Below are positions 1 to 52,673 of a stretch of DNA of 64,000 bases, piece after piece. This DNA comes from Tetraselmis striata (Eukaryota > Chlorophyta > Chlorodendrophyceae > Chlorodendrales > Chlorodendraceae), in NCBI GenBank assembly GCA_006384855.1, contig VCJN01002089.1:62001-126000 (forward strand), in the 5' to 3' direction. A program made the position numbers and the translations under genes. Position 1 is the first letter of the stretch. Every line of letters begins with the position of its first letter. The notes under the pieces are model-generated. The model ran no database searches. It was not told the DNA's origin and worked only from the letters and a program-made list of their open reading frames with translations.

Positions 1-22
1 TAATATTATCTTTTTAATCTTT

Positions 23-2290: not shown

Positions 2291-2363
<73 letters not shown>

Positions 2364-6386: not shown

Positions 6387-6421
<35 letters not shown>

Positions 6422-10460: not shown

Positions 10461-10532
10461 TCGAACGCCCTGACAAGGTTTCCACTGCGAGGTTGATCTC
10501 GCTTTTTGATGAGAACCTTGAAGATGAACGTT

Positions 10533-11486: not shown

Positions 11487-11700
11487 TGGAAGATGGCAGA
11501 CGAGCTGCTGGTGGCTGTCCTAAGTAGCTCCCCGGCCGGGAGCGCAAGGCTTGCGGGCGATGGGGCAGCCCGTACTAAAACCCGATGATACAAGTTACCT
11601 AATATATAACCGGTTAAAACCACTAACATATCGTACGGGTTGCACAAGGACAGTTAGATTCGTTAGGAAACCCCATAAAAACGTTTAGATCATTTCAACA
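11487..11700. repeat. direct repeat, copy 1 (partner at 13607)
   Basis: About 200 bp shared in the same orientation with 13607-13815. Landmarks are GAGCTGGAAGATG, GGTGGCTGTCCTAAGTAGCT, CTAAAACCCGATG and GGAAACCCCATAAA. The two copies bracket about 2 kb. A shorter tandem similarity (TTTCAACAT, CAAT, GAGTCTGGTT) links 11311 and 11692. Confidence 0.7.
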
Positions 11701-13606: not shown

Positions 13607-13815
13607 GTGAGCTGGAAGATGACATACGATCTGCTGGTGGCTGTCCTAAGTAGCTCCATCCCCGGCCGGGAGTGCATGGCTCGCGGGGGATAAGGCAGCC
13701 CGAACTAAAACCCGATGGTAGCAGTTACCTAACCGATTAAACCCACTAAAAGACCTTGCCGGTCGCACTGTGACAGTCAAATTCGTCAGGAAACCCCATA
13801 AACACGTTTACAGTC
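13607..13815. repeat. direct repeat, copy 2 (partner at 11487)
   Basis: This copy differs by scattered substitutions and small indels, so duplication is not recent. No terminal TG/CA or target duplication was found that would make the pair clear LTRs. Confidence 0.7.
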
Positions 13816-16072: not shown

Positions 16073-18461
16073 GTGTCACCGGCGGCAAATCCGATGGCCT
16101 GCCCCAGGCAGCGGGTCATGCGGCAGCCGCAGTGCCGCACAGTAGGCACGCCGAGCCGGCAGCGGAGGGCCGCGACGGGCTGTCGCGGCGAGCGGTGCTG
16201 GCCATGGGGGGGATGCTGTCGGCCGGCAGCGCCGTACGGCCTGCTGCCGCCGCCCCAGCGGAACCATTCTGCGGTGTGGGTGGACGAGTTATCCCGCAGT
16301 GGGCCTACAAGACCGACTTTCAAGTGCCCTCTCCCCCCTCCCGCGCCCCCCCTATAAAGCTTGCCAAGTGATGCAACCCTTCGCAAATGCCATTAAAAAA
16401 AAATCACGTAGGAAGCGCACCCTTGCGGAGCTATTCGAATAACCTGATTGTTATATCTGCCCTTACAGCAATTCTTGGTGGACTTTCATGGCTTCAAGAC
16501 GTTTGTGCGGACTGTTGGGAGCCCCCCAAAGAAGTGAGACCACCGCATCCTGCGATTCCCCCAGGCTCATATAGACCCCAACGCACGCAGTGTATCCCAA
16601 CGCCGCCGCGCCCTCTACTGCCCGTGCTGAATGCACCACAGGAACGTGCTATCAATCCTGCCCGGCGGCGGGGCGCCCCTGCTGCCGACGCTGGTGGTCC
16701 ACGGCGGCCCCGGTCTCTCCTCCACTTACCTGGAGAGCCTGGAGCTGCTGGCTGCCGACGGGCGGCAGATCATTTTCTACGACCAGATTGGCTGCGGGAA
16801 GTCCTTCGAGGGCAGCGGCAACAGGGCCCCGCCCGGTGAGGAATACAGCCTGGGCCTCTTTCTATCTGAGCTGGACGCCGTCAGGTGGGCGCATGGGCTG
16901 TGCTGATCACCTGCCGCGCGCTGAGAATGCTGACCCACTGTAACATTGAGATTTTTGGTGTAGTTTTATATCTTGTTCCAGATAAAGATAGTATTATCTC
17001 TTAGTGCACAAGGGGGGGGGGGGGGGGGTCAAAAGCAATGCAATATAGCGTGGCTACGAGTATTAAGCACCACTGACAGGTTAGGCTGGCTGCTCAAGCT
17101 TGGCCGGGATGCGCCCACTGCAGGTCCTCTCTGAACCTCCAGGGAGGCTTCCACCTGATTGGGCACGGCTGGGGCGGCATGCTGGCGCTGGAGGCCGCCA
17201 GCCGCCCGGGTGGCTGTCCGGGACTCGCGTCGATATCCCTCATCTCCACGCCCCCAAGTACTGCCGCGTTGACGGCGGATCGACGCGCCTGTGTAAGCTC
17301 CCTGCCGCCACTGCTTCTATTATTTCTCCCCCTGATATGTCATTTTGTATGTATATAGTTAGTAAGTGTGTACGTAACGTAAATGCTGCATATGTGGTAT
17401 GCCACGTCAATCCACCACGACACATGCACTTGTAGCTGTACCTAGTATGGAAACGACATCACTGATGAGCAATGGTACTCCGTGTAATGCTTTGGATTCG
17501 CTATATATTATTGTTCTGGCATCATTTTTATGACCTGGGAACCCAGTACGATATTACGGGTAATAATCTCGCCAGCGTGACAAGGGCTCATAGGCGGTAT
17601 ACACAGCAAATTGTACGCTCACTCCCCGCAGCGCATACGAGCAATGTGTGGCCCCCCTAGTAGTCACATGGACGTGCGGCACCCGACTGACTGGGCGGTA
17701 CATGCGGGTGGGTGCCCGCAGGTGGCCCGGCTGCCGCAGGACGACAAGGAGGCGCTCCTGGACGGGGAGCCGGGCACGCCTCGCTACGAGGCGGCGCTGA
17801 ACGAGTACCGCCGGGAGTTTGTCAACCGGCAGCCGCGGCAGTGCGCGGAGACGGCCAGGTGCGTTGCTGTGCCGCCAATTGACGCAGTCGCACAGCAATG
17901 CGCAAAGTAAAGATGACATGCTTTACTTTTGACAAGATGACAAAATAGATGCTAAGAATGAATGTGATGTTCCGCGCACATCATGGCTCTCAGTCCGGCG
18001 GCAAGCGGAGCAGTACGTCAACGCTTTATCGGCAGCATTGAGCTGTTTGCCTTTTGCCGCACAGGTCCCGCACCTCGAAGCCGGTCATGCAGGCGCTGGT
18101 GGGCCCGGACTGGCTGTCCCCTGGCGGCCAGCTGGCTGGCTGGGACGCCACTCCAGCGCTAGGGGGTATAAGTGTGCCGACCCTCGTTGTCCGTGGAGAG
18201 TACGACGAGGTGTCCCAGGTGACGCCCCAACCTCCGCAAGCAGCCCGCCTTCGTCATGAACCTTTGAGCTGCGCTGACTCGGCGCTGTGTGGTCGTTCTT
18301 AGGCCTCCTCCGACAAGCTTATTCGAGGTATCAAGGGCGCCCGCGGCCTGGTCTGCCTGGACTCCGGCAGCTATTGCCACCTGGACAATCCGGAGACGGC
18401 GCTGGGAGAACTCAACGATTTCATGTCCGCTGCGGATGAGTCAGCCGCCTCTGCGGCCTAG
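16073..18461 (+). CDS. proline iminopeptidase-like alpha/beta hydrolase, Ser-to-Gly at the nucleophile
   Basis: Predicted join(<16073..16323,16469..16533,16642..16884,17124..17292,17722..17858,18065..18218,18303..18461), all phases consistent. The 5' exon with the initiator is not found; the frame is open only from 16054. The N-terminus looks like a thylakoid-lumen transit peptide with a twin-arginine motif (SRRAVLAMGGMLSAGSAV ending AAAAP). The oxyanion-hole motif VVHGGPG, the FYDQIGCGKS segment, the acid region VPTLVVRGEYDEV and the catalytic-His region GSYCHLDNPE are all present. The nucleophile elbow normally reads GHSWGG but here reads GHGWGG (CAC GGC TGG). If correct, the protein cannot use the usual serine chemistry and may be a non-peptidase family member. 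Family: peptidase S33. The intron at 16885-17123 has a G-run. Confidence 0.75.
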
Positions 18462-19171
18462 CGAGCCAAGAGACACTACACTGAGTTTGTGTGGAGTGGC
18501 GTCTGCCAGAGCACCGGTGATATATCGGGCTTTATAGTGCCGCACTGACCTGCTGGGCTTGTCTGTCTGCTGGCGGACCATCGTTTCTCTGCATATTTAA
18601 CTTTCTAAATTCGAGCCTTGGAATGCCGCCAACCTCCACTACATAGCACCTATTGATGAGTCAGCAGTATACTGTAGCCTGCTACCACTGATACAGGCTC
18701 GCTTGGGCATCTGTAGATTATTGGTTTACCGCCAGAAAGTAGCTGCCTGTGTGGCGGCGACAGATCGCCTACGCCAGAGCGCGGACGCGACGAAGCTACA
18801 GCAGTTCGGAACCGCAGTGATTGCACCAGCAGAAGGACGCTTGGGCAGTCCCATGCCTGGCGGGGATGCCTCTGTGCTACAAGAAATAGTTTGAATATAT
18901 GCATACCTCCTTTTCTGTGGCCTAGTGCAAACCGACGACGCGAATCGACGACACCCTTCTCTGTGTCGGGGCGCGAGGGCGCGTAGTAGCGCCCTTGGTA
19001 GTGCCGAAACAAGGTGGCTGACGCAAACGATGAGCGGCCAACGAATACCTGCTCGCAGACTGCTCCGAAACCACTTGCGGAATAAGCTTTGTGAAATGTG
19101 TATCACTGATCGTCATCAGCATATCGTTCCGCGCGCGCGCTAATATATAAATGCCGCGCTTATTGAGGCAT
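18462..19171. other. spacer between the iminopeptidase gene and the inverted repeat
   Basis: One short plus frame (about 18735-18894, KVAACVAATDRLRQSADATK..., preceded by CCGCCAG) reads like an isolated exon, but no partner exons or family are recognised. The rest shows nothing supported. Confidence 0.35.
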
Positions 19172-19572
19172 GGAAAAATGAATAAACGTGTCTTCTCACT
19201 GCCACAGAAGCATTTATTATTAAGCCGGACACTGAACCGCGCGGTGCGCGCCAATGTACCCCGGTCCTCGCTCTCCTTGCGCCCCTCGCGGGGCGCGTAT
19301 AACCTAGCGCCACACCCGCACAGCTAGGGCTTACACGCCCAGCCGCGCGGTGCAACGATATCGCGGTACAACTTTATATCGTTTCAAATATTTTTAAAAT
19401 ACCTGTACCCAACAGTGACATTTTGCGCAGTGGCCGGGCGCGAGGTAGGAGTTCAAATCCAGAGCAGAAAATAAGGATCGCACTCGCGTTGATATTCCAT
19501 TATTTTAAACGGCGACCTCTGCCCTCGGCCGCCCTCTTCTAGTGCTGCCACCACTCGGCAATTGTCCGCACC

Positions 19573-20042
19573 ATGCTACCGGCGAATACAGCAGGCACCA
19601 AGGGGTCGCTTCAAGGACTCATCAGACGGTATAGGCGCATAACAAAGGTCCCAAAGGGGTCGAATGGTGTGCATAAGATGTTGTTGACGAATCTTATGGC
19701 ACGCACACCATCGGCCAGCGTCACACCGCGATATGTCGCGCCACCGTCGGGAGGAGAGCCAAGCGAGGCTCCCCGCCCGACGAGCCCCAAGAACCGCCCT
19801 CGCCGGGCGAACAACATGAGGCTCACACCCCGAAGCCCTTATGGGATCGGATGCTGTCTCATGACCGGCGGCTTTTGCGCGTCTCTCCATACGACCGCGA
19901 GGCGCACTATGTTGTGCCGGCACACAAGAGTCACACATATCAACACAGCTGCAAAGACTTTGTCATTGTGGGTTTCAGATTCGTGAAGCAAGTTCTCTGG
20001 CAATGCGGACGGTATTACGCTCGGTTGGTGCGGCTCCGCTAG
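19573..20042 (+). pseudogene. left-arm copy of an unrecognised about 154-aa frame, frameshifted
   Basis: Begins MLPANTAGTKGSLQGLIRRY and continues through KVPKGSNGVHKMLL. At about 19769-19774 the C-run is one base shorter than in the right-arm copy. The frame then moves and the conserved remainder (HDRRLLRVSP...QCGRYYARLVRLR) is read in another phase. No family is recognised. Retention of the same frame in both arms suggests it was a gene or captured exon before inversion-duplication. Confidence 0.4.
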
Positions 20043-20287
20043 GGGTCGTGACGCATCTCCCCACCGGAGAGCATGCTTCCCGGACGCGGACTGGCCAGGT
20101 TGCACTGTGGCGGAGGTCAAGGGGGCAGGTACGGTAGTATTTTATCACCCACGGTCGTGCGTACAAGTAGTCGCTATATGCCGTTATTAAAATCATCAAC
20201 CCCGGACAAAATGGCCCGACGGCACAGTGTTAGTCACGCTATATCGCGTCAACGATAAATCGTTACAAATGCGGTAGCTTTTCATCA
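20043..20287. repeat. ACGAT-core satellite, outer left segment
   Basis: Contains the satellite core TCAACGATAAATCGTTACAA and the unit landmarks CACCCACGGTCGT and CATCAACCCCGGACA. The array continues at 26953 after the Copia element, which shows that the retrotransposon landed inside a pre-existing array. Confidence 0.75.
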
Positions 20288-20292
20288 CCCAC

Positions 20293-20811
20293 TGTTGTTT
20301 GATACCAGTCTTGCAGGCGTATGACCGGCTGTCTGGAGCCTTGACGCCTGCACACTCTCAGCAGTATCTGTAGACGGCGGAGCGATCGTACGGCTACGAG
20401 TACGAGGACGCGAGTACATCTCCGGCAGCAGACGTACATCGCGGAGCGGCTGTACATCTTCGAGTACGAGGACGCCCGTGCGAGCACAATCAAGATTCCG
20501 GTACTGCTGAGTATCAATGGTGGGCGCCATGCAGTACTAGAATATACTGCAGGATATCGGCCGATGCAGAATATACTGCAGGATATCGGCCGATGCAGCA
20601 GCGGATACTGTATTGTACGGACATAGATAATGCCAATACTTAGGCTCGCATATATGCGTTAAGTACTGGATAATACAGTCAGCGCGCGATGGCGCAAGGT
20701 GGCGGATGCGCTAATGGCTGGCGTGCGCACCATGGCGTGCGGAGTATAAAGGCAGGGCGCGACCCGTTGTAAGAGACAGTCGTTCTTTTCCCTCACGCCC
20801 ATATTTCAACA
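20293..20811 (+). repeat. Copia 5' LTR
   Basis: 519 bp, TGTTGTTTGATACC...ATTTCAACA. A TATAAA box lies at about 20745-20750. A perfect tandem duplication of about 30 bp (AATATACTGCAGGATATCGG unit) sits near 20540-20595; duplicated segments in U3 often act as enhancer-like repeats, though that is inference here. Confidence 0.93.
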
Positions 20812-20823
20812 GGTTATGGGCCC
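20812..20823 (+). promoter_or_regulatory. primer-binding site, initiator-tRNA-Met half-tRNA type
   Basis: GGTTATGGGCCC directly abuts the 5' LTR. It is complementary to the anticodon-arm sequence GGGCCCATAACC of eukaryotic initiator tRNA-Met, not to a tRNA 3' end. This matches the internal priming known for Drosophila copia and yeast Ty5. Confidence 0.75.
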
Positions 20824-21769
20824 TCGCTTCCTTTCATCTCCCAAGCCAAGGAGCGGCCTCTGCCAACCACAGGAGCATCACAACCAGGTTCTTCCGCCGC
20901 CCCTTGCTGCTGATTCTTGGGAGGGGACCTGCGCTGTTGGGCTGGGGGGACTCGAACGACTCGTTTTCGCTCGCTGAGAGCCGAGCGTGGCCGCGAGAAG
21001 CGGTGCACTGACGGTGGCAGTCAGTGGGCGCCCTGGGACGGGGCGTGGGGCTCGTTTGCCTGTGCGACGCGAGGTCGCTGCTCGACACTGGCCTCCCTAG
21101 GCAGTGGGCGTCCTGTAGGGGCGTAGGGGCTGTTTGCCTGTGCAGCTCGACGCTGCTGTCGACCTCTTTCGTTTCGGCTGTGTCTCTCGACGCCTGGGGC
21201 CGCGTTCCGACGCCCCTTTCAGTCTCTCGACGACTCGGGCCGGCTTCGAGTCGTGTCGACTCGTGTGCGCTTGTCGCTCGCCCAGTTAGAGTGTGTCGAG
21301 CTGCCTCGCCGGCCACAGGGGAGGCAGACGGCCTCGTCGAGCGCTCTGTCGTGGTCTTGTGCCAGTGGTATCGACCCTCGTCACGAGGCAGGCAGGTTGC
21401 CGAGTTAGCAGCAGTCTGCGACCGGAGAACGACGTAGTTTCCGCCGTGTTATAGGCGAATCTATGAGAATCAAAAATTAGCCGGATTTCCCGGTGGTTTT
21501 CCGATTTATCGTAGCCGGTAATTTGATTTCCGCAGGGCCGCGGTTGTTTGTTGATTAATCGCGGCCGGTAATTAAAAGATTGTGCGGCTCCGGTTGTTTT
21601 CTCTCCCCAATTTCAAAATTTTGACCGAGTTTCTCCCTGTTGACCATCTCTGGTGGGAGAAAGTTGCCACTGCGGCAAGCAGTGGTGGGGGCTTTTGGCC
21701 CTGTGAGGACCAGACCGCTGACTTGGCCTCTGTCCCGCTCTGCAGTTGATTTCCATCACTGTGATCATC
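20824..21769 (+). other. Copia 5' leader
   Basis: About 950 nt between the primer-binding site and the gag-pol start codon. Frames within it are short. A TCGACG-rich segment (21040-21320) is followed by an AT-richer stretch with repeated GCCGGTAATT motifs near 21510-21575, which could serve packaging or dimerisation. No upstream ORF looks conserved. Confidence 0.45.
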
Positions 21770-24700
21770 ATGCCGGAAGGAGTGTCCGCCCGCGCGCCGC
21801 GCATTCCGTTGCCGCCCGTTTTCTCTGGTCAGACCAAGGGGTGGCGCCGCTGGAGGCACCAGATGGAGGCCTATTGCAACGCCACTGGCATGAAGCAGGC
21901 CATGATGATGAGTGAGCATGCCTCATCTGATCAGCACTTCAAGCTGTATGCAACCCTGACTGCGCTGCTCCCCGAGGAGCTCCTGGATGTCATCCGTCGG
22001 CACCTCAATGACAATGCTACCTCTGGAGGCCAAGCCTGGGCAGCTCTGCGCACCCGCTTTGAGGGAGGCCATCTTGGCAGGATCTCCGACATGTATGCGG
22101 TGCTCCAATCCGGTCAACAGCGCACCGAGACTGCGGAGGCATACTACCATCGCCTGGACAACGCCTTCTTGGACTTGGTGGCTGAGGCTGAGGAGCATGA
22201 GGATGTTGAAGCTCCATCACATAACCAAGTTGTGACTCAGTTCCTGGCTGGCCTCCGTCCCGAGTACGAGCCCATCATCGGTATCCTGCAGGTGACCGCG
22301 GAGCATGAGGGCCGCGCCATCACCTGGGAGGGTGACTGCCTCAAGCTGGCGCAGAACTACTCCAAGCGTATTGAGAAGAACCATGCATCGGAGCCATCTG
22401 CGGAGGGCTACATAGCCAGTGGTGGCACCAAGCGCTCCGCCCATCTGGCCACAGGCGATGGATCTGGACCTCGCCGCCTTGGTGCCCCTCTGCGCGGTGG
22501 ATGCTGGCAGTGCGGTGGGCCTCACTTCAAGCGGGACTGCCCGCAGCGCCCAAGAGGCAACAGGCGTCAAGCTGCTGCGGACCCGGCACCGGCGGCCTTT
22601 GTTGCTGATGAGGAGGAGGAGCATGTTGCTTTCATGGCTGAGAATGCCGGTAACACCCCACCTGCAAAGCGCGTTGCGCTGTCCCTGCTGGATGACGAGT
22701 GGGATGATTGGGCGCCGGAACCGGGCACCCTGCTGTATGACCTCTTCGGAGGGGAGTATGAGTCCGAGGAGGATGTGCGGCCGGCTGAGGCTGCTGGTGC
22801 TGTTGCTCAGGCGAATGAGCGCGAGCATGACCTGGACAGCCACAACATGGATGAGATCATATCGCTGTCTGGGCTGTCTGACTGCTTCGGCATGTCTGAT
22901 GATGAGGCGGGTAGTGCCTCTGGTGGCATGGGCGGCTCTGCCCGTGTTGTAACCAAGTCTGATTCCGCCTACTTGCTTGATGCGGTTGCTCTTGCGAGTG
23001 TTGTTGTCGATGCACGAGGGGCGTGCATGCTGGGGCTGAATGATGATCTCGGAAGCTACCCGGACATGTGGGTGAAGGACAGTGGGGCATATCCGCATAT
23101 GGTGGCTGACTCTGACAGCTTCGTGGAGTATGAGCAGCTTGCACCACCGGTTGAGGTGGGGGGTATTTGCTGTCTGGCGGTGGGCCGGGGGACGGTCTGG
23201 ATGGTTGTTCGAGCCGATGGCGGCGAAGTACGCAGTGTGCTTCGTGGGGTTCTGCATGTCCCGGACTTGCCGGGCAAAACAAAGCATGGCTACCGCAGGT
23301 TGTTTAGCCAGCGGTTGGCGCAGGAGCGTGGCGCTTCGTTTCATTACACGGCCAACGGGGACTCCATGGTCTTGCGCTCTGCTGGCCGTGATATGACGGT
23401 CCCTATCGGGCGCGCTCCGGGAAGCAACTTGTACGCTTTCCGCAGCAGAATACTACGGAGCGGGCGTGCGCCCAGCCCTGCGGATGTTGTTGCGCTGCAA
23501 GCTTGTGGGAAGTTGTCAAAGTTGCTGTGGCACAGACGTCTTGGCCATCTGCATGCTGCAGGCATGGATCGTTTGCTTGCGGAGAGCGTCTCGGGGATCA
23601 CGTTCGCGAAGGATGAGATACTGCCGTTTTGTGACTGTTGCGCGTTGGCGAAGTCTCACGAACAGCCGCGGTCGCGCATTGCGTCAAAGCGTCCTACTGG
23701 GCCACTGCAGAAGTTTGGAGCTGACATCTGGGGGCCAGTGGGTGTGACGTCCATTGGCGGGTTCCGTTACGTGTTTGGGATGACTGACTACTACTCGGCA
23801 TACGGCTGGGTGGTGTTCATGAAGTCCAAGGATGAGGCTCCGAGGGCTCTGCTGTTGGTGGTGCGAGCTATCAGGCGCGTGCATCCCCGATTCGGATACG
23901 ACAAGAGTACAGCTCGCCTGAGATTGGACAACGACTCAGTCTTCCAGAGTGCGGATTTTCGATCTGCATGCGATGGCCTGCACTTCGTTCCTGAGTTTTC
24001 TGCGCCATACTGCCAATGGCAGAATGGTCTGCAGGAGCGTATGTGGCTTACTCTGTCCGAGATGACGGTGGCTATGCTGCTACATGCTGGCCTGGGTCGT
24101 GAGTTCTGGGCGCTGGCCTTCTGTGCCGCGATGCACATCCGCAACAATGTCTACAGTCGGGGTGTCGGTTCTGTTCCCTACCGGCGTCACACTGGCAAGA
24201 CCCCAGATGTGGCTGGGTTGCGGGTGTTCGGCTGTCCAGCGTATGTGCACGTGGATGCCGGGAATAGGCGGAAGCTTGACGCCAAGGCCTTTCGCGGGGT
24301 CTTCGTTGGTTATGGGCAGGAATCTCACACCTACTTAGTGTGGAACCCAGCTACTCGCCGGGTGGTTGCAAGTCGGAATGTGATTTTCGATGAGGGTTGG
24401 CGTGATGCGGCTTCCAGCAGCAAGGGGGGCAGTGGGGGCGATGCTGCTGCAAGCCTTGAGATGTTCCCCCAATACCAGGCACTTCTCGATAACAGCGGGG
24501 TTGGCAGCACGTCCGACGCATCACGGCTGCAAGAGATAACCGAGGCTCACCAGCGTGTCGTGGATGAAACGGACGACGTTGAGGAGGAGCTTGAGATTGA
24601 GGAGGAGCCACTGACTGCGGAGGAACTGGAACTTGGACCGCAGCAACCCACGCTGGAGCTGACCCAGTTGGAGACGAACGAGGGAACCGACGATGGCGGG

Positions 24701-26407
24701 CAAGAGGAACCTTTAGTCCAGCGTGCTGAGAGGGACCCCTACCCTGCTCGTTCTCGCCGAGCTCCTGGGCAATGGTGGGTCGTGCATCCGGAAAACCCCA
24801 ACGACGACGCTGCAGCTATGATGGCCGCCGCATTCGCGGCAGTGACACAGGGTGTCGATGAGCCCATCACGCTCAAGCAGGCCCTGTCCGGACCGTTCAA
24901 GGAGCAATGGGCGCAAGCCGTAGAGTCAGAATTCAACTCGTTGGAGAAGCAGGGCACGTGGGTGGTGTGCGAGTTACCAGAGGAGCGAACAGCCATTCCC
25001 AGCAAATGGGTATTCAAGGTCAAATACAACGCTGATGGCAGTATCGCGCGCTTCAAGGCCCGACTGGTTGTCCAAGGCTGCCGTCAACGACATGGCATCG
25101 ACTATGCAGAGACTTTTGCACCGACCGTGAAGTTCACCACTATCCGAGTGCTGTTTGCGATTGCAGTACAATACGGTTGGAATATCCATCAGGTTGATGT
25201 CGACACGGCGTTCCTGTATGCTCCAGTGGAGGAGGAGATCTACATGAGGCCGCCGCCTGGCTATGAGCAGTACGATGCGAGAGGGCGGCCCATGGTCTTG
25301 CGCTTGTTGAAGAGCCTGTACGGGCTGAAGCAATCACCCCGAAATTGGCACAACACCTTGCATAAGTTCTTGGTGTGCTACGGGTTTCAGCAGCTCAAGT
25401 CCGACCCTGGCGCGTACGTCTACTGGCAGGGTGGGCAGTTGATCTGCATCCTGGTGGTGTACGTGGACGACATGATCTTTGCCTTCAAGGACGCAGTATG
25501 GGCCGCGGATTTCAAGACGGCATTAGGCGCCCGCTTTGACATCAAGGACTTGGGCGTCTGTGCCTGGGCGCTAGGCATGGCGGTGGAGCGAGACTGGGAC
25601 AATGCGACGCTGAAGGTGCATCAGGCCAAGTACATTGATGACATGGTGCACAAGTTCAACCTTGCTGACGCTTACGCTGTGAGCACCCCAGCGGAGGTTG
25701 GTGCCGATGTCCCCGGTAGCAACAAGCCGTTGGCTGCTGAGATGCCATATCAGGCCCTTGTGGGCAGCCTGCTGTACGCGATGGTGGCTACCCGCCCCGA
25801 CATTGCCGAAGCCGTGAGCAAGTTGTGCAGGGTGATGGCCAAGCCTGAAGAGCGCCACTGGCAGGCTGCCAAGCGAGTCCTGCGATACCTGAAGGGTACC
25901 AAAACCCTGGGGCTGACCTTCAGTGGGGGCAAGGCTGACGGCCTACTGCACGGGTACTGCGACGCCGACTGGGCTGGAGACGTGGTGTCACGACGCTCCA
26001 CCACTGGCTTCGTCTTCATGCTTTGTGGAGCTGCAGTGAGTTGGAAGTCGCAGCTGCAGGCCACTGTGGCGCTGTCAACGGCGGAGGCGGAGTACATGGC
26101 GTTGTGTGCTGCTGTGTGCGAGGCGCTGTTCTTGCGCGAGCTGCTGCGCGAGCTGTGTTGTGCTCAGTCCGAGGCCACAGTGATCTTCGAGGACAACCAG
26201 AGCTGCATTGCGCTGACGCGCAACCCCATGACCCATGGTCGCAGCAAGCACATCGCCATCAAGTACCACTTCACACGGGAGAAGGTGCTCAGCGGGGAGG
26301 TGGCAATTGAGTACTGCCCGACTGCACAGATGGTTGCGGATGCACTCACCAAGGCTCTGGGAAGGCTGAAGCACGCGGAGTTCGCCATGCAGATGTTGGG
26401 CGCGTGA
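21770..26407 (+). CDS. Copia gag-pol polyprotein
   Basis: Single frame of 1545 aa from the ATG at 21770; a TTG-led extension to 21746 is unnecessary. Domains in order: gag (GWRRWRHQMEAYCNATG, UBN2/DUF4219 style); a zinc knuckle CWQCGGPHFKRDC at about 245-257 with spacing CX2CX3HX4C, one residue short of the classic form; aspartic protease with DSGA at about 437; integrase with HRRLGH and CDCC zinc-binding pairs at about 588-640 and catalytic D652, D720, E756 (DD35E); Copia-type reverse transcriptase (KARLVVQG, VDTAFLYAPVEEEIYM, SLYGLKQSPRNW, YVDDM with Y at about 1231); and RNase H (CDADWAGD, STAEAEYMAL, EDNQS). The integrase-before-RT order defines Copia. There is no frameshift or stop between gag and pol, so Gag excess must arise another way, such as splicing or proteolysis. 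Confidence 0.95.
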   Translation: MPEGVSARAPRIPLPPVFSGQTKGWRRWRHQMEAYCNATGMKQAMMMSEHASSDQHFKLYATLTALLPEELLDVIRRHLNDNATSGGQAWAALRTRFEGGHLGRISDMYAVLQSGQQRTETAEAYYHRLDNAFLDLVAEAEEHEDVEAPSHNQVVTQFLAGLRPEYEPIIGILQVTAEHEGRAITWEGDCLKLAQNYSKRIEKNHASEPSAEGYIASGGTKRSAHLATGDGSGPRRLGAPLRGGCWQCGGPHFKRDCPQRPRGNRRQAAADPAPAAFVADEEEEHVAFMAENAGNTPPAKRVALSLLDDEWDDWAPEPGTLLYDLFGGEYESEEDVRPAEAAGAVAQANEREHDLDSHNMDEIISLSGLSDCFGMSDDEAGSASGGMGGSARVVTKSDSAYLLDAVALASVVVDARGACMLGLNDDLGSYPDMWVKDSGAYPHMVADSDSFVEYEQLAPPVEVGGICCLAVGRGTVWMVVRADGGEVRSVLRGVLHVPDLPGKTKHGYRRLFSQRLAQERGASFHYTANGDSMVLRSAGRDMTVPIGRAPGSNLYAFRSRILRSGRAPSPADVVALQACGKLSKLLWHRRLGHLHAAGMDRLLAESVSGITFAKDEILPFCDCCALAKSHEQPRSRIASKRPTGPLQKFGADIWGPVGVTSIGGFRYVFGMTDYYSAYGWVVFMKSKDEAPRALLLVVRAIRRVHPRFGYDKSTARLRLDNDSVFQSADFRSACDGLHFVPEFSAPYCQWQNGLQERMWLTLSEMTVAMLLHAGLGREFWALAFCAAMHIRNNVYSRGVGSVPYRRHTGKTPDVAGLRVFGCPAYVHVDAGNRRKLDAKAFRGVFVGYGQESHTYLVWNPATRRVVASRNVIFDEGWRDAASSSKGGSGGDAAASLEMFPQYQALLDNSGVGSTSDASRLQEITEAHQRVVDETDDVEEELEIEEEPLTAEELELGPQQPTLELTQLETNEGTDDGGQEEPLVQRAERDPYPARSRRAPGQWWVVHPENPNDDAAAMMAAAFAAVTQGVDEPITLKQALSGPFKEQWAQAVESEFNSLEKQGTWVVCELPEERTAIPSKWVFKVKYNADGSIARFKARLVVQGCRQRHGIDYAETFAPTVKFTTIRVLFAIAVQYGWNIHQVDVDTAFLYAPVEEEIYMRPPPGYEQYDARGRPMVLRLLKSLYGLKQSPRNWHNTLHKFLVCYGFQQLKSDPGAYVYWQGGQLICILVVYVDDMIFAFKDAVWAADFKTALGARFDIKDLGVCAWALGMAVERDWDNATLKVHQAKYIDDMVHKFNLADAYAVSTPAEVGADVPGSNKPLAAEMPYQALVGSLLYAMVATRPDIAEAVSKLCRVMAKPEERHWQAAKRVLRYLKGTKTLGLTFSGGKADGLLHGYCDADWAGDVVSRRSTTGFVFMLCGAAVSWKSQLQATVALSTAEAEYMALCAAVCEALFLRELLRELCCAQSEATVIFEDNQSCIALTRNPMTHGRSKHIAIKYHFTREKVLSGEVAIEYCPTAQMVADALTKALGRLKHAEFAMQMLGA

Positions 26408-26418
26408 TGACTGCATGG

Positions 26419-26428
26419 CGAGTGGGGG
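26419..26428 (+). promoter_or_regulatory. Copia polypurine tract
   Basis: Purine-rich GAGTGGGGG directly abuts the 3' LTR, in the place expected for plus-strand priming. Confidence 0.6.
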
Positions 26429-26947
26429 TGTTGTTTGATACCAGTCTTGCAGGCGTATGACCGGCTGTCTGGAGCCTTGACGCCTGCACACTCTCAGCAG
26501 TATCTGTAGACGGCGGAGCGATCGTACGGCTACGAGTACGAGGACGCGAGTACATCTCCGGCAGCAGACGTACATCGCGGAGCGGCTGTACATCTTCGAG
26601 TACGAGGACGCCCGTGCGAGCACAATCAAGATTCCGGTACTGCTGAGTATCAATGGTGGGCGCCATGCAGTACTAGAATATACTGCAGGATATCGGCCGA
26701 TGCAGAATATACTGCAGGATATCGGCCGATGCAGCAGCGGATACTGTATTGTACGGACATAGATAATGCCAATACTTAGGCTCGCATATATGCGTTAAGT
26801 ACTGGAGAATACAGTCAGCGCGCGATGGCGCAAGGTGGCGGATGCGCTAATGGCTGGCGTGCGCACCATGGCGTGCGGAGTATAAAGGCAGGGCGCGACC
26901 CGTTGTAAGAGACAGTCGTTCTTTTCCCTCACGCCCATATTTCAACA
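26429..26947 (+). repeat. Copia 3' LTR
   Basis: 519 bp, same ends and same internal 30-bp duplication as the 5' LTR. It is followed directly by the CCCAC target duplication. Confidence 0.93.
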
Positions 26948-26952
26948 CCCAC

Positions 26953-27965
26953 AATCGTTATTACGAGTATGTCACCAACCCGGGCAGAAGTCACGCTATG
27001 TCGGGTCAACGTGACATCGTTACAAGTCGTGAACAGCGGACATTATGTCAGGACCATATTAGTAAACATAACGATATATATCGTGTCAACGTTAAATCGT
27101 TGCAAGTGCGGTAGTAGTAATTAGCTTATCACCCATGGTCGTTGATCATACAAGTATGTCGCGTTGTTATCATCAACCCCGGACAATATGTCCGGACCGC
27201 ACAGTATTAGTCACGCTATATTGTGTCAACGATAAATCGTTACAAGTGCGGTATAGCTTTTTATTACCCACCATGATCGTTCATACGAGTATGTCACCAA
27301 TCCGGACAATAGTCAGCACGCTATATCGGGTCAACGTGACATCGTTACAAGTCGTGAACGCCGGACATTATGTCCCGGGCGACAGTAACGATATGCCGTG
27401 TCAACGATAAATCGTTACAGGTGATGTAGTATTTTATCATCCACGGTCGTTCATACAAGTTAGTATATGTCGATGTTATCATCAACCCTGGACAGAAAGT
27501 CCCGACCGCAAAGCGTTAGTCACGCTATATCGTGCCAACGATAAATCGTTACAGATGATGTAGCTTTTAGCACCCACGATCGTTCATACGAGTATGTCAC
27601 CAGCCCGGGCAGTAGTCACGATACATCGGGTCAACGTGACATCGTTACAAGTCGTGAACGCCGGACATGTCCCGACAGTACTAGTAACGATATATCGTGT
27701 CAACGATATTTCGTTACAAGGGCGGTAGTGTATTTTATCACTCGCGACCATTCATACGAGTATGGCCGTGTTATCGTGCTATCATCAACCCCGGACGACA
27801 GTGTTAGTAACGATATAATGTATCAACGATCTGTCGTTACAAGTACAGTAGTAAGTTACTTATCACCCACGTCATACAAGTATTCCATTATCAACGCCGG
27901 ACATTGTGTCCCTAGCGCACAAGAGTGTAGGTAACGATGTATTATGTCAACGTTAAATCGACACA
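26953..27965. repeat. ACGAT-core palindromic satellite, left arm
   Basis: Degenerate units of roughly 100-160 bp. Each has one or two cores of the form TCAACGATAAATCGTTACAA or TCAACGTGACATCGTTACAA, followed by GTGCGGTAG...TTATCACCCAC and a (T)ACGAGTATGTCACC or CATCAACCCCGGACA block. About ten cores can be counted. Each core is itself a near-palindrome (AACGAT...ATCGTT). No coding frame persists. Confidence 0.82.
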
Positions 27966-29200
27966 AGTGGCATGTTGTATACAAGGTGATGGATGGAGGC
28001 ATCGGCGGCGGCTGCGGAGGAGGCGGAGGTAGAGGAGGAGGCGGAGGAGGAGAAGCATGCCGACGGGAGGGGGGGGGTGTACTACAGATGTGAACAACAG
28101 AGACAAATATGGGCATATTCGCATGCACCGTAGCAGTTGATACCAGCATTATTGTAATTCAGTACCCACCTACTAGCTTTGCAAGGATCTGCGTGTCGTA
28201 GACTGGTGCGTTAGGTGATAGTTGGGAGGGCCGGGGGGGTGGGGGGGGGCAGACGGCATGCCTCATGTCAGCGCGGAAGTAAGCAGAGTATCAAAGCTGT
28301 GTGCACCTATTTATACTTAATGTGCACATACTGGGTCAAATTGTAATCACGTTTTATCGTTGCAACGAATACTCGTGCAAGGCCGCTGGTGAAAGCCGGA
28401 ATCTGAAGCGGGCGAGTCTAAAACGAGATGGATTTGACACGTGCATGAGTGCAATGTAATAACGGCGGTGGGAAATCATCCAGAGCAGGGTTGAGGTAGC
28501 ATGTAGAGTGACATTGTTGATATCAATCTGAAGATGCAACACATGTAATTCTGCCCGCAGCTCGCTGTCCGCTCCCCGTTGCCCGCCGCCGGCTGCCCGC
28601 TGCCTTCTCGCTCACATGCTGCCGTACCTGCGCAAACACGACTAATCGTGTTCACGATTACTCGTGTTTATCTTGCTTGCCCTAACGCCAGCCTATTTTC
28701 ACCCATGCGCACGATGTGTTGGACTATCACTATTGTGCGCTTCGGGCATCCCGCTTTCAATCCGGGGCTGATGAAGTTGATGAAAACGCGCAAGTCTTGG
28801 AAACCCTAAAGCCTACGGTGACAAGAAAACAACTATCTCACATGTAACGATTTACCCTTGACGCCACAACTCGTTACGAAGATTGTGTTGCGACGATATA
28901 CCGTTGCGCCGATGATAGATGGTGTTTATTACGCCGAAAAATACTGCAACGAATAATCGTGTGGCACGATACGTCGTCCATACAGGTCATGTAAGTTTTG
29001 CGCTCTGGCTCCGAAACCATGTAGTTATTGTGATGCGCCGCGGCGGGGTGTCGCGTGCATGCGGCGCAGAAGGCGGAGTTTGACGGACCGGATTGATGGG
29101 TGGTGGTGGTGGGGGGGATGGGGGGGATGTGTGATGAACCGACTCCATGGGAGTACGTTGGAGTGACATACTCAGGATGGGCGGCGTATCTCGGAAGATG
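27966..29200. repeat. left-arm middle: triplet tract, promoter-like spacer, palindromes
   Basis: Contains a GAG/GGC triplet tract (about 28000-28060), a G-run (28226-28252), and strong short palindromes such as CACGACTAATCGTG next to CACGATTACTCGTG (about 28636-28670). Each has its mirror image in the right arm. Short frames (62-76 codons) recur in both arms only because the DNA is duplicated. Confidence 0.65.
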
Positions 29201-30130
29201 TGCGATAGTATACGCAATGCGCTATCGCGGTGATTACCAAATTTAGGGTGCCCACGCGAAAATATATGACATAAGCATTATTGTCTCCCAAAATGGCGAG
29301 GGAATCGCAACATTGTATGTGCATTGACGACACCTTGCAACCCCGACGCCATTCTGGTAGATAATGTGTGACGTCGGGTACGGCTGTCAATATATATATG
29401 GTATTACACACCGTGTGACTATTATCACATGTGCCCGTGTGAAACCGGCGTCATGCATTACCTCCCAAAATGGCATAAGAATCGTAACACTGTATGTGCA
29501 ATGACGACACCTTGCAACCCCCGCGTTATTTTGGGAGATAATGTGTGAAGCCGGGTACGGCTGTCAATTTATGGTATTACACACCGTGTGATTATTACCA
29601 CATGTGGCCACGTGAAACCGGCGTCATGCATTATCTCCCAAAATATCCCCGGGGTTGCAAGGTGTCGTCATTGCACATACAATGCGACGATTCGTCCGCC
29701 GTTTTGGGGGATACTGCATGACGCCGGTTTCACATGGCCACTACATGTGATATTAGTCACACGGTGTGTAATACCATAAATTGACAGCCGTACCTGGCTT
29801 CACACATTATCTCCCAAAATAACGCGGGGGTTGCAAGGTGTCGTCATTGCACATACAGTGTTACGATTCGTACGCCATTTTGGGAGGTAATGCATGACGC
29901 CAGTTTCACATGGGCACATGTGGTAATAATCACACAATGTGTAATACCATAAAACGACAGTGAGCCGTACCCGGCGTCATACATTATCTACCAGAATGGC
30001 GTCGGGGTTGCAAGGTGCCGTCAATGCACATACAATGTTGCGATTCTTTCGCCATTTTGGGAGACAATAATGCTTATGTCATATATTTCGCGTGGGCACC
30101 CTAAATTTGGTAATCACCGCAATAGCGCGT
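29200..30130. repeat. core of the giant inverted repeat with nested inverted blocks
   Basis: The axis lies near 29672. A spacer of about 55 bp (29646-29700) separates the arms. Around it a block of about 170 bp recurs several times in both orientations; landmarks are TATCTCCCAAAAT, GCAATGACGACACCTTGCAA and TTACACACCGTGTGA. The core is therefore a palindrome of smaller repeats as well as the centre of the large one. Confidence 0.8.
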
Positions 30131-31328
30131 TGCGTATACTATCGCACATTTTCCGACATACGCCGCCCAACCTGCTGAGTATGTCACTCCAACGTACTCC
30201 CCTGAAGCCGGTTCATCACACCCCCACCCCCCCCCCACCCACCCACCCATCAATCCAGTTCGTCAACCTCCGCCTTCTGCGCCACATGCACGCGACACCC
30301 CGCCGCGGCGCATCACGATAACTACATGCATGGTTTTGGAGCCAGAGCGCAAGATTTATATGACCTGTGTGAACGAGTGAACGACGTATCGTTGACACGA
30401 TTATTCGTTGCAGTATTTTTTTCGGCGTAATAAACACCATCTATCATCGGCGCAACGGTATATCGTCGCAACACAATCTTAGGAACGATTTGTGGTGTCA
30501 ACGTTAAATCGTCACATGCAGCATGTGAGATAGTTGTTTTCTTGTCACCGTAGGCTTTAGGGTTTCCAAGACTTGCGCGTTTTCATCAACCTCATCAGCC
30601 CCGGATTGAAAGCGGGATGCCCGAAGCGCACAATAGTGATAGTCCAACACATCGTGCGCATGGGTGAAAATAGGTTGGCTTTAGGGCAAGCGAGCAAGAT
30701 AAACACGAGTAATCGTGAACACGATTAGTCGTGTTTGCGCAGGTACGGCAGCATGTGAGCGAGAAGGCAGCGGGCAGCGGGCGGCGGGCAACGGGGAGCG
30801 GACAGCGAGCTGCGGGCAGAATTACATGTGTTGCATCTTCAGGTGGATATCAACAATGCCACTCTACATGCTACCTCAACACTGCTCTGGATGATTTCCC
30901 ACCGCCGTTATTACATTGCACTCATGCACGTGTCAAATCCATCTCGTTTTAGACTCGCCCGCTTCAGATTCCGGCTTTCACCAGCGGCCTTACACGAGTA
31001 TTCGTTGCAACGATAAAACATGATTACAATTTGACCCAGTATGTGCACATTAAGTATAAATAGGTGCACACAGCTTTGATACTATGCTTACTTCCGCGCT
31101 GACACGAGGCATGCCGTCTCGCCCCCCCCCCCCCCCCCCCCCCCCGGCCCTCCCAACTATCACCTAACGCACAAGTCTACGACACGCAGATCCTTGCAAA
31201 GCTAGTAGGTGGGTACTGAATTACAATAATGCTGGTATCGACTGCTACGGTGCATGCGAATATGCCCATATGTGTCTCTTTTGTTCACAGCCGTAGTACC
31301 ACCCCCCCCCCCCCTCCCGTCGGCATGC

Positions 31329-31470
31329 TTCTCCTCCTCCTCCTCCTCCTCCTCCTCTACCTCAGCCTCCTCCTCTACCTCCGCCTCCTCCGCAGCCGCC
31401 GCCGATGCCTCAGATGCCTCCTCCTCCGTCTCCTCCTCCTCCTCCTCCGCTGCCGCCGATGCCTCCATCA
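31329..31470. repeat. CTC/CTT/CCG triplet repeat tract
   Basis: Trinucleotide-dominated tract. It gives Glu/Ala-rich minus-strand and Ser-rich plus-strand frames that are not considered real proteins. Confidence 0.8.
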
Positions 31471-31499
31471 CCCTATATACAACATGCCACTTGTATCGA

Positions 31500-32640
31500 T
31501 TTAACGTTGACATAATACATCGTTACCCACACTCTTGTGCGCTAGGGACACAATGTCCGGCGTTGATGATCGATGCAATATTTGTATGAACGTGGGTGAT
31601 AAGTAACTTACTACCGCACTTGTAACGACAGATCGTTGATACAATATATCGTTACTAACACTGTCCGGGGTTGATGATAGCACGATAACACGGCCATACT
31701 CGTATGAACTATCGCGGGTGATAACATACACTACCGCCCTTGTAACGAAATATCGTTGACACGATATATCGTTACTAGTACTGTCGGGACATGTCCGGCG
31801 TTCACGACTTGTAACGATGTCACGTTGACCCGATGTATCGTGACTACTGCCCGGGCTGGTGACATACTCGTATTTACGATCGTGGGTGCTAAAAGCTACA
31901 TCATCTGTAACGATTTATCGTTGACACGATATAGCGTGACTAACGCTTTGCGGTCGGGACTTTCTGTCCAGAGTCGATGATAACATCGACATATACTAAC
32001 TTTTATGAACGACCGTGGATGATAAAATACTACATCACCTGTAACGATTTATCGTTGACACGGCATATCGTTACTGTCGCCCGGGACATAATGTCCGGCG
32101 TTCACGACTTGTAACGATGTCACGTTGACCCGATATAGCGTGCTGACTATTGTCCGGATTGGTGACATACGCGTATGAACGATCATGGTGGGTAATAAAA
32201 AGCTATACCGCACTTGTAACGATTTATTGTTGACACAATATAGCGTGACTAATACTGTGCGGTCGGGACATATTGTCCGGGGTTGATGATAACAACGCGA
32301 CATACTTGTACGAACGACCGTGGGTGATAAATAATTACCACTACCGCACCTGCAACGATTTAACGTTGACACGATATAACGTTTCTAATACTGTTGGGAC
32401 ATACTTTCCGGCGTTCACGACTTGTAACGATGTCACGTTGACCCGATATAGCGTGACGTCTGTACGGGTTGGTGACATACTCGTAATAACGATTGGGTGA
32501 TAAAAAGCTACCGAACTTGTAACGATTTATCGTTGACGCGATATAGCGTGACTAACACTGTGCGGTCGGGACATATTGTCCGGGGTTCATGACATACTTG
32601 TATGAACGACCGTGGGTGATAAAATACTACCGTACCTGTT
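31500..32640. repeat. ACGAT-core palindromic satellite, right arm
   Basis: Mirror image of the left-arm array. It carries repeated TGTAACGATTTATCGTTGAC cores at intervals of about 100-160 bp. Confidence 0.82.
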
Positions 32641-32735
32641 CCCTTGCTATATCTTAATTGACCTCCGCCACAGTGCAACCTGACCAGTCCGCGTCCGGGA
32701 AGCATGCTCTCCGGTTTGGAGATTCGTCACAACTC

Positions 32736-33200
32736 CTAGCGGAGCCGCACCAACCGAGCATTATACCGCCCGCATTGCGAGAGAACTTCACGAATCTGAA
32801 ATATAACCCACAATGACAAAGTCTTTGTAGCAAAGTGGGCCTCGCGGCCATCGGGAGAGACACGCAAAAGCCGATGGTCATGAGGCAGCATCCGATCCGA
32901 TAAGGGCTTCGGGGTGTGAGCCTCATGCCGCTCGCTGGGCAAGGGCGGTTCTTGAAGCTCGTCGGGCGGGGGAGCCTCGCTTGGCTCTCCTCCCGACGGT
33001 GACGCGACATGTCGCTGGGTGACGCTCGCCAAGGGTGTGCGTGATATAAGATTCGCCAACAACATCTTATGCACACCATTCGACCCCTTTGGGACCTTTG
33101 TTATCCGCCTATACCGTCTGATACGTCCTTGATGCGACCCCTTGGTGCCTGCTGTAGTCGCCGGTAGCATCGTGCGGACTATCGCCGAGTGTGGCAGCAC
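32736..33200 (-). CDS. right-arm copy of an unrecognised 154-aa frame
   Basis: Open minus-strand frame of 154 codons; the segment MLPATTAGTKGSHQGRIRRY onward aligns with the left-arm copy. Middle segment KVPKGSNGVHKMLLANLISR, then a Pro/Glu-rich stretch with SGGEPSEAPPPDELQEPPL, ending SQCGRYNARLVRLR. It is intact here but frameshifted in the left arm. No known family or motif is recognised. It points inward, toward the palindrome centre. It could be a captured host exon or a remnant of the gene that once mobilised the repeat. Confidence 0.35.
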   Translation of the reverse strand: MLPHSAIVRTMLPATTAGTKGSHQGRIRRYRRITKVPKGSNGVHKMLLANLISRTPLASVTQRHVASPSGGEPSEAPPPDELQEPPLPSERHEAHTPKPLSDRMLPHDHRLLRVSPDGREAHFATKTLSLWVIFQIREVLSQCGRYNARLVRLR

Positions 33201-33691
33201 TAGAAGTGGGCGGCCGAGGGCAGAGGACGGCCGTTTAAAATAATGGAATATCAGCGCGAGCGCGATCTTATTTTCTGCTCTGGATTTGAACTCCTACCTC
33301 TCGCCCGGCGACCGCGCAAAATGTCAATGTCGCTAAAGGTATTTTATTTAAAATATTTGAAACGATATATCGTTGCACCGCGATATCGTTGCACCGCGCG
33401 GCTGGGCGGGTAAGCCCTAGCTGTGCGGGTAGGACGCTAGGTTATACGCGCCCCCCGAGGGGCGCAAGGAGAGCGAGGACCAAGGTACATTGGCGCGCAC
33501 CGCGCGGTTCAGTGTCCGGCTCAATAATAAATGCCTCTGTGGCAGTGAGAAGACACGTTTATTCATATTTCCGTAAATGTGTAGGCGGCTTGTACTGTAT
33601 TTTTTATGTCTTTTTGGTTACAGGGAGAGCGTCCAGAGAATGCACGCAAAGTACTGGGGAAGGAAAAGGCCTACATTTAAGCAGAACCCTC

Positions 33692-36600
33692 TTAGCGCCG
33701 GGCCGCGGGGCCCGGCGATGCGGCAGGTAATTGTCGGCCGGCCGGCCTAAAAGATCTTCCGCCGAAGCAGAAGGGACGGCTTCCGGTGTGCCGACAGAGA
33801 TATTCGGCGAGAAATATGTGCAGTGCCACAGAAAGCTTCGCAGTCCACTTCCGTATCCAGTGGGCAACCAGGGCGGCTGGCCGGAGTTCACGCCACGAGG
33901 GGGGTTGCTTCAGGTGGCTGCTTGCGATGCCGCGCTCCGCAAGCTCCTTGAGTAGAGCGAGCAGGTGCTCGCCCAGACGCCCGCCCTCCTCGACGACGCA
34001 CGGGACGAAGCGGTGTCGCCTTGCCACGGGCTGGGACGAGCAGGCGTCAACCCTAAACTTGGTTTGCTCGCGCAAGCGCGCCGCGTAGCCGGGTTGGACC
34101 GCGACTTGCGCCGCGATGGAGTTGCGAAAGACGCCTGTGACAGCAGCGTCTAGCACAAGGTGCACCCCCGGCCCCATGTAGTCAAGTTGCACCACGTCTC
34201 CCGGGCGCGTAGCGTCCGCGGAACGGAGGCCGCGCACCTCCGTTAGCACAGAGTCGCGCGGGGCCCCGGCCTCCTGCAGGATGGATACCATGGTAGTGGC
34301 GATGCGCGCGTGAACCTTGTGCCAGGCGCCGGCGCGTGGGCAGCGCACAATGTGCCGCTCAAGTGCTTCGTCAGTAGCGCCGGGGGATAGGTCGCAGTGT
34401 GGGCACGAGTCCTCGAGCCCGAGCGGGCTGTCGCCGAGGGCGGCGATGCCGCAGCACTTGCGCAGCGCGACGCGGTACGGTTCAGGTTCCACAGCGTAAG
34501 CCGCGGGAGTGTCGGAGGTTAGGTATGTGACGCTCCCGTGGCCAGACTGGGACAGTAGGCGTATGCGCTCGGGCAGTGTGGCGGTTCGGTACAGGTCGAA
34601 GAAGACGCGCCACTTGCGCGTGTGCGACAGAACAGCGGCGACCTTCCGGAGGCCTTTTGCTTCGTCGATTGCGGAGTTCAAGGAGGGCAGCTCGCCGAGG
34701 GTGAGCCTGGGGGGCAAATCAAGCGTACCGGTAGTGGTGTCGCCGGCTCTGTCGACCGGGTTGCCGACCGGCGCCACGGTAGAGGCCATGTCTGTTTCCC
34801 ACGTCTGGAAAGAGTCTTCTCTGTCTTGGCTGGCCTGCCACGCCCGACGAAGTGCGGCGGCCCATGGCAGGGAGGAAGTCTCCGGGTTCGCTAGTTGCTG
34901 AATCAGCCGGGGCGCCAGGAGTCCGGGCATCTTGCGTAGGCGCTCGGCCAGAGGCCCAGCGAGGGCAAAAAAGGCCCCGAGGTGCTGCTCGTGCGACTCG
35001 TGGACTAGTGAGTCGACAGCGATACCACCGAGCATTGTGGATAGGCCGGTGCGCATCAAACTTAGGCTAGCCGCTGTCTCATCGCCAGTGAGATCCATAA
35101 TGTGCGCGAGCGTGGAGTGTACCGCGGCATCTCTCTCGAGCATAAACTCGGCAAGCGACTCGGGCGGTAAGCCTCGCAGCAGGTGTGCGAAGCGCTTGAC
35201 GCCGCACACTTGCACGAGCGAGGCGCAGGGACGCGTGAATGTGGCCCGCATCAGCTATCTCGCGCGCCATAAGTAGGATGGCGTCTTGTCGCGCGGCCGG
35301 CCGCCGAAGTGCGTCGCGCACGAAGGTGGGGTCAAGCTTGCGGTGGCGCGGCACCCCCAGGCAGCGGCGGAAGCCCGTGACGAGGTGGGGTAGGACAGCG
35401 GGGTCCCTGGCGCGCGAGAAGGCGGCGGCGTCCAGGGATCCAGAGGGCGGGCAGGGAGGGGGGGAAGGCGCGCCTGCGGCTCGGGGGAGGAGGCCCTCCC
35501 ACTCCCGTATGGCGGCGCCGTGTTCCGCAGGCGCAAACGCCACTTCCGTCTTGTCGGGGCCCCAGGAGATCGATAGCCCAACTGCCGCTAGGGCAGGCTG
35601 AGCCGGGTGTAGAGCAAGCGCCGTGCCAAGCGCCGTGCCTAGGAGGTGCAGGTCATCGGCAAATGCGAGGCCGAGGCCGCCCATACCCAACTTCGCAGTG
35701 ATAGCGTCAAAGACAGGGCCAACGGTGAGACAAAAAAAGAAGGTGGCGAGGGGGCAGCCTTGGCGAATGCCGCGCAGCTGTGTAAGCACAACTGTCGGCG
35801 CGTCGCCGTCGGACTCGTGGTCATACAACCAGTTCTCCGAGGGGCCAGCGTATAGCATGTCGAAGAGGGGCAACAGGGAATGCAGGGCTGGGTCGGCGAC
35901 CAAGCGCCTCCGTATGGCGCGCCGGTCGGTCATACCGTAGGCATTGGAGGCGTCGATGGATGACGCAGCGAGGCGATCGTCCATCTCCATGGCGACTTGT
36001 ATTACCCATTGGATCATGTCCGTGCCGGCCGGAGTGCTCAGCGCAAATTGCGATGGGCCGACAGCACGGGCTATGTGGTCGCGGATAGTCCACATGGCTG
36101 CCGAGGAGGCCACTCTAGTTAGAGCAGAGCTGAAGCCGATGGGTCGAATGGGTGGGCGGTAGGGGCTGTTCTGCGCCTCGGCCTGCCCTCGCAGATCACC
36201 TCGCGCCTCTTCGTCCTTCTTCCACAAGGGAATGAGGGTCGAGGAGGACAGTAGCTGCTTGACGCGGTCGGAGACGTTACCAGAGCACACAACGGTCATA
36301 AAGCGAGCCATGGACTGCAGGGTATCATAGTCATCAGACAGATCACGTAGGTGGTCGACTCGCCAGCCATCGCGATGGCAAGCCGAGTCGGCTGGCGCTC
36401 GCTGGAGCACGCCGTGCAAGTCATCGGGGCTGATGGTAATAGGGGGTATGCCATCTGGCTCGGGCGGGGGGAGCAGGCCGGATGGGTCGTCAGCAGCAGG
36501 GGGAGGAAACAGCCGGCGCAGCTCGTCGATGTTCTCTGCGGACGGTTCCGCAACGCCGTGGTTCTCGGCAAGCGCTGCGGCGTCGCGGAACCGCCCGACG

Positions 36601-37535: not shown

Positions 37536-37616
37536 TGGGGATGGGTAGGAGGGAGGGGGTGCGGCGAGGCCTGAGGGGGCGGTCCGACGAGGAGGGGTTG
37601 AGGGTGGGGGTGGGGT

Positions 37617-39203: not shown

Positions 39204-39330
39204 GAGTGTAACACAGACGGATAAGTACTATGGAGTATTAATTAGCGAGCGTAATCCAGCACCTCGCGTGGTGCGGGGTGGGCTCGGATCGTGGGGGCAC
39301 CGCTCGCAACTCACGCGCTGAGCGGAACTG

Positions 39331-51681: not shown

Positions 51682-51712
<31 letters not shown>

Positions 51713-52639: not shown

Positions 52640-52673
<34 letters not shown>

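Follow-up and report, generated by a model that had tools for sequence, protein, structure and literature searches.

In a 64,000-nucleotide stretch of DNA from the green alga Tetraselmis striata (contig VCJN01002089.1, positions 62,001–126,000, assembly GCA_006384855.1; hereafter, the window), we identify a giant inverted repeat, split by a Copia retrotransposon, which is, with a probability of about 0.83, one copy of a non-autonomous foldback DNA transposon family that is mobilised in trans and generates target duplications of 7–8 base pairs (bp). The family is present in multiple copies, its ends are fixed, its insertions carry target duplications, one cross-contig pair of flanks has a matching empty site, and its arms bear no sign of coding. 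The foldback type to which it belongs is already known, and the family is ordinary in kind.

An inverted-repeat search and an arm alignment bear out the giant palindrome that an earlier note had described from the letters alone. Inverted repeats of the window share a common axis near 29674, in line with the 29672 given in that note, and include the pairs 27141–27796/31663–32318 (97%), 28225–28680/30690–31145 (96%) and 29260–29605/29743–30088 (93%), together with an outer pair at 19172–19397/33347–33572 (94%). With Copia removed, the arms measure 3859 and 3907 nucleotides (nt), as the estimate of about 3.9 kb had it, and are 94.65% identical over ungapped columns, with gaps in 286 of the 4026 alignment columns; this likeness is far beyond chance. 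The palindrome does occupy 19172–33572, but these positions are not the limits of the element, as homology to other copies extends 7 bp further on each side and stops sharply at 19165 and 33579, leaving about 7.75 kb without Copia. Nor is the centre the simple 55-bp loop once proposed: it comprises about three copies of a 176-bp unit, which itself contains inverted blocks. The array in the right arm has a period of 303 bp, and the long, internally repetitive inverted arms, a trait of foldback architecture, make up most of the element. The Copia long terminal repeats (LTRs) are 519 bp each and 99.8% identical, the insertion is flanked by the target duplication CCCAC, and its reading frame matches Pfam RVT_2 and other retrotransposon domains. 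The same insertion is present in the copy on contig C626 as far as that copy was read (window 24638 onward). Copia is a young insertion in the window copy. The features are as follows.

19165–33579, no strand: whole foldback element including the nested Copia, with sharp homology ends against other copies
19165–19171, plus strand: left terminus GAGGCAT, unmatched by the other end; 22 of 49 typed ends are of this left type
33573–33579, minus strand: right terminus GTAAATG (CATTTAC read inward); 25 of 49 typed ends are of this right type, by pattern matches
19172–20292, plus strand: outer left arm, from the inverted-repeat search and arm alignment
20293–26947, plus strand: nested Copia retrotransposon, from its LTRs, target duplication and Pfam domains
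20293–20811 and 26429–26947, plus strand: Copia LTRs
20288–20292 and 26948–26952: Copia target duplication CCCAC
26953–29672, plus strand: inner left arm with unit array, from the inverted-repeat search and arm alignment
29673–33579, minus strand: right arm, from the same two analyses
31662–32592, minus strand: 303-bp repeat array (paired units of about 150 bp) with palindromic cores, mirrored at about 26940–27880
29528–30068, no strand: central 176-bp repeats around the axis, from repeat analysis
29634–29672, no strand: point at which the contig leaves the C626 copy for a different one (between first substitution and axis), by the window/C626 comparison
19157–19164, plus strand: CGCTTATT, the left member of a target duplication that has its partner at the C626 right end
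33580–33586, plus strand: TGTAGGC, the right member of a target duplication that has its partner at the C871 left end

The searched assembly (224 Mb, 2903 contigs) contains many copies of this element. The RuBisCO large subunit encoded on its contig C1177 has 1gk8, a Chlamydomonas entry, as its best PDB match, which points to a probable green algal host if that contig is no contaminant. A 1301-bp query from the centre matched the window and places on at least 37 other contigs, at least 38 contigs in total (best 40 of 60 candidates scored), and a 256-bp query from the left terminus, a search of the kind that the earlier note had recommended, found at least 40 places (best 40 of 159 candidates scored). 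In the centre the best copies are 97–99% identical and others down to about 70–80%, and the copies are therefore of several ages. They are dispersed, with constant ends and differing flanks, as befits a foldback transposon. Just inside the ends, both sides carry GGAAA(A/T)ATGAATAAACGTGTCTTCTCACTGCC with small variations, and the outermost seven bases are GAGGCAT on the left versus CATTTAC, read inward, on the right. Ends were typed by script with a 12-base pattern allowing up to two mismatches; besides the left-type and right-type ends listed above, two were of neither type. The set of 49 omits the C1487 left end (L031) and the ends of C2442, C2633, C1704 and C1040, and the C187 left boundary was set by rule because of a small insertion there. 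As the inverted repeat stops short of the outermost base and the outer 7 bp differ, the element is filed as foldback by its architecture and not as a perfect terminal inverted repeat (TIR) element. This conserved asymmetry of the ends is odd. C765 has two right-type ends and looks like a plain fold-back artefact, because its two flanks repeat each other in inverse orientation (97.4% over 1330 bp, 30 gaps); C2652 and C1141, in which a right arm lies at the contig end, may be fold-back artefacts as well. C1277 has two left-type ends within a tandem duplication.

A script compared the sequence preceding each left end with the sequence that follows each right end, and revealed target duplications of 7–8 bp at the exact ends in 6 of the 12 contigs that have both a left-type and a right-type end belonging to one element. 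They are 8 bp long in C388 (GTCACTAC), C187 (GCCCAGCA), C1318 (GACGGTTG) and C1682 (ATAAATCC), and 7 bp long in C1025 (TGAGGGC) and C1728 (CCGCGTG). All six contigs have one end of each type, with arm sequence in opposite orientation at the two ends. The near symmetry of the arms about a single axis would suit a single event of inverted duplication, or of hairpin amplification, at the window locus, which the earlier note had offered as its second explanation; the same ends and arms, however, recur in many contigs with different flanks, six of them with target duplications, and make such an origin highly improbable.

Matches of 7–8 bp between contigs were found in 5 of 538 cross-contig pairs, versus 0 of 4950 in a shifted control. 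They join the window left flank with C626 (CGCTTATT), the C871 left flank with the window right flank (TGTAGGC), C1975 with both C871 and C777 (CATGTTA), and C2846 with C1098 (GGTGTTGC). When the left flank of C871 was joined to the right flank of the window copy at TGTAGGC, C1912 matched the whole join (88%, 9 gap columns), a near-match empty site for this pair. Among the best 40 of 1761 places for the joined query, 34 cover positions 1–54, across the junction, at 100%. The window right flank is therefore part of a repeated target, the other half of which lies at C871. For the window-left/C626 site, a search for an empty allele found only the two occupied halves.

The two flanks of the window copy thus come from two different insertions, and it is because its contig joins them that the copy has no target duplication, as the earlier note had correctly observed. 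Left of 29600, the window and C626 differ at 10 positions in 4962 bp (3 substitutions, all within one G-run, and 7 gap positions). On the other side, 3979 bp hold 72 differences (34 substitutions), and the first substitution lies at 29634, close to the axis near 29672. An assembler misjoin at the palindrome axis is most likely. A genuine ectopic recombination between two copies could also have joined the halves, and the window pattern is the one for which such recombination has been proposed in chimeric Galileo copies with unmatched flanks (PMC3573991). We consider it an unlikely but not negligible alternative: one flank occurs in two contigs (the right flanks of C871 and C777 are 99.7% identical over 893 bp, with no match between their left flanks) and its duplication points to a third, C1975; C765, which looks like an artefact, suggests that the assembly does fail at these palindromes. 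Within contigs, the assembled sequence seems to switch from one locus to another at such palindromes, and gene neighbourhoods across them (window 1–19164 versus 33580–64000) are not to be trusted without reads.

The worry about assembly raised in the earlier note is therefore justified as to which flanks belong together, but not as to the existence of the palindrome. Artefacts of the C765 kind lend some colour to the idea that the palindrome itself is an assembly fold-back. Against it, the arms differ by about 5%, the six duplication-bearing contigs carry oppositely oriented arm sequence at their two ends, and the left arms of young copies fall into a clade apart from the right arms in the innermost segment (clades of 7 and 7 arms; 0.974, 0.979) and the outer segment (4 and 7 arms; 0.975, 0.761), although not cleanly in the two middle segments; we regard a fold-back origin as very improbable. 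These trees come from 15 copies (the window and 14 loci) of the at least 38 contigs, with 16, 20, 24 and 28 arms by segment and C765 excluded as an artefact.

The inner-arm tree, which holds 28 of the 30 arms (two had too few letters), places six left and seven right arms of young copies in two groups, and pairs left with right in older copies such as C187, C719 and C1566 and, weakly, in C171. Pairing is patchy along the arms. The C1025 arms pair only at arm positions 1080–2300 (0.975; four segments tested) and the C187 arms only at 2300–3100 (0.998; four segments tested); those of C388 pair at 2300–3100 (0.991) and not at 3100–3900 (two segments tested), and in the outer segment arms pair in none of five copies. 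Such patchiness suggests partly concerted evolution of the arms, probably through conversion from one arm to the other within a copy. Palindromes of Y chromosomes are a precedent, their arms being kept alike by arm-to-arm gene conversion. Tentatively, the family might represent a long-lived lineage of bare-palindrome transposons, in which conversion keeps the arms alike and the needs of an as yet unknown transposase keep the outer 7 bp different.

The ACGAT...ATCGT cores reported in the earlier note are well beyond expectation: the right arm contains five exact ACGAT(N0–6)ATCGT palindromes, where 300 first-order Markov sequences average 0.04, and 29 core sites when one mismatch is allowed. Several cores form pairs with a spacing of 15–16 bp; such pairs occur close to the end of the element (189 and 205 bp from it), within the array and in the inner arm. 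By analogy with Galileo, the cores in the arms are candidate transposase sites. We infer a cycle in which a transposase encoded elsewhere would bind both subterminal and internal cores, bring the left end together with the right and excise the element, which would then insert at a 7–8 bp staggered cut. Conversion within a copy would partly homogenise the arms. The suggestion of a foldback or TIR element with such cores as binding sites has thus held for the element, through its copies, shared ends and target duplications, while the cores retain the standing of candidates.

Variation across the arms showed no codon-phase pattern, their longest shared reading frame has small deletions of 1, 4 and 5 bases, and we reject a coding function for them. 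Rfam gave no match within the window. The P-type transposase domain PF21787 had no matches in the genome, with the control also silent, and no transposase was seen among the reading frames behind seven further ends (by eye, Pfam not run). The insertions between ends that were read, a set that leaves out some copy interiors, including those of C210, C1094 and C1728, appear to be other, nested elements.

One of these insertions bears on the class of the family. Between the ends of C1701 lies DNA resembling the coding region of a Mutator-like element (MULE), with a match to PF10551 that falls below the cut-off (E 0.013); this would make the family a Mutator foldback if the gene were its own. This is improbable: among the 128 listed matches of the C1701 protein stretch, only that in C1701 lies between two located family ends; the boundary sequence of the MULE is, by eye, unlike the family ends; and the duplications are 7–8 bp here versus the 9 bp reported as common for MULEs (PMC3169594). 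The family shows no 9-bp duplications and apparently has no MULE gene of its own within the ends. The MULE piece had no match when compared with PDB, and C1701 was set aside as an autonomous copy, its insert looking nested and belonging to another repeat.

Other candidate autonomous copies were rejected as well. In C388 and C1025 the frames resemble, by eye, those beside a reverse transcriptase/tyrosine recombinase-like element at C2846, and the three frames scanned gave nothing significant against Pfam. C1682 carries an insert of about 13 kb between 336-bp direct repeats that are 99% identical; these repeats lie within the palindrome (L056 1337–1672 and L057 6320–6655). C2846 holds an XPG_N-coding element with copies elsewhere. 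In C225, C1064 and C2442 a different sequence follows after about 207, 224 and 315 bp of end, respectively, C1277 retains only a 99-bp remnant, and the 3.4 kb behind the C2453 right end has only short, low-complexity arm matches. The central inserts of C1318 (1.4 kb) and C1487 (5.5 kb) were not identified, their frames not having been run against Pfam; 844 bp of the latter match window 12757–13559 at 79%.

Several observations weigh against a family of foldback transposons moved in trans. Half of the two-ended contigs (the window, C871, C777, C1254, C210 and C1094) have no matching duplication of their own, C1254 having a near-match by eye, and of these only the window, C871 and C777 have cross-contig partners. 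C1701 and C171 each have one end of neither type, and a TIR element would not usually have outermost 7 bp that fail to match. Conservation of the cores exceeds that of the adjoining sequence only weakly. At CpG positions of the array, variation across arms is 0.026 in cores (n=56) versus 0.060 outside (n=136), and at non-CpG positions 0.045 versus 0.052; the core set as a whole does not clearly stand out, 52 of 1050 circular shifts doing as well. No transposase was found for the family in the inserts read or with the one P domain searched, and no hAT search was made. Finally, consensus mixing in the assembly could produce the patches of arm similarity.

The view in the earlier note that no feature class explains such a structure does not hold, as the foldback elements Galileo, Tetris and Tm1 share the architecture. 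Galileo, of the P superfamily in Drosophila, makes target duplications of 7 or 8 bp, and its longest copy, from D. willistoni, combines arms measuring 4246 and 4680 bp with repeats of about 140 bp but lacks a transposase segment (PMC4168063); footprinting of one transposase-binding site is reported, along with additional sites in the arm repeats (PMC3688188). Tetris, in Drosophila virilis, has arm repeats of about 220 bp, 8–9 bp duplications in its complete copies and no known transposase (PMC4079207). Tm1 of root-knot nematodes is a Mutator/foldback element of about 1–2.5 kb with 9-bp duplications and a known MULE transposase (PMC3169594).

Galileo resembles the algal family in the internal repeats of its long inverted arms, its target duplications of 7 or 8 bp, many non-coding copies, chimeric copies with unmatched flanks and a longest copy without transposase. 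The comparison is one of description. In contrast to Galileo, the outermost 7 bp of the algal family differ between ends, none of the algal copies with an interior that was read has its own coding middle, and no P-type transposase was matched here (one domain searched, control silent). Tetris, likewise compared by description, is also a non-autonomous foldback with arm-internal repeats and no known transposase, but only three of its copies are structurally complete, the size of its middle domain varies and its host is unrelated. Tm1 shares composite long inverted repeats and non-coding copies, and also has a rare coding copy; its 9-bp duplications, known MULE transposase and size of about 1–2.5 kb set it apart. 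hAT elements make 8-bp target duplications, and the 7–8 bp duplications of the algal family fit P-type (7 or 8 bp) or hAT (8 bp) elements better than MULEs (9 bp).

A description of the family was sought in the open literature (titles and starts of abstracts), and none was found. Our findings demonstrate the foldback architecture in a green alga, at several levels of divergence and, where read, as bare palindromes of about 3.9-kb arms. The family suits tests of how palindrome arms are maintained and how non-autonomous elements persist.

Some further features lie in or beside the copies. In C1277 (L045, L046), two near-identical stretches lie 14.8 kb apart, each with a dynein light chain as its frame, and the 99-bp left-end remnant stands beside a dynein light chain gene. 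The repeat with an XPG N-terminal nuclease domain (L043 662–1120, L061–L065) has 58 genome matches; in 14 of these, identity is at least 79% across most of the query. Near the right end of the window element, reverse transcriptase-like frames lie on the minus strand at window 33692–39227 (RVT_1, E 5.7e-5, below the cut-off). Window 49665–53342 is 73–76% identical to a stretch behind the C225 end that resembles, by eye, a tyrosine recombinase element. A different repeat of about 700 bp, at window 59916–60617, is 93–95% identical to its listed copies (3224 candidate places, best 40 scored).

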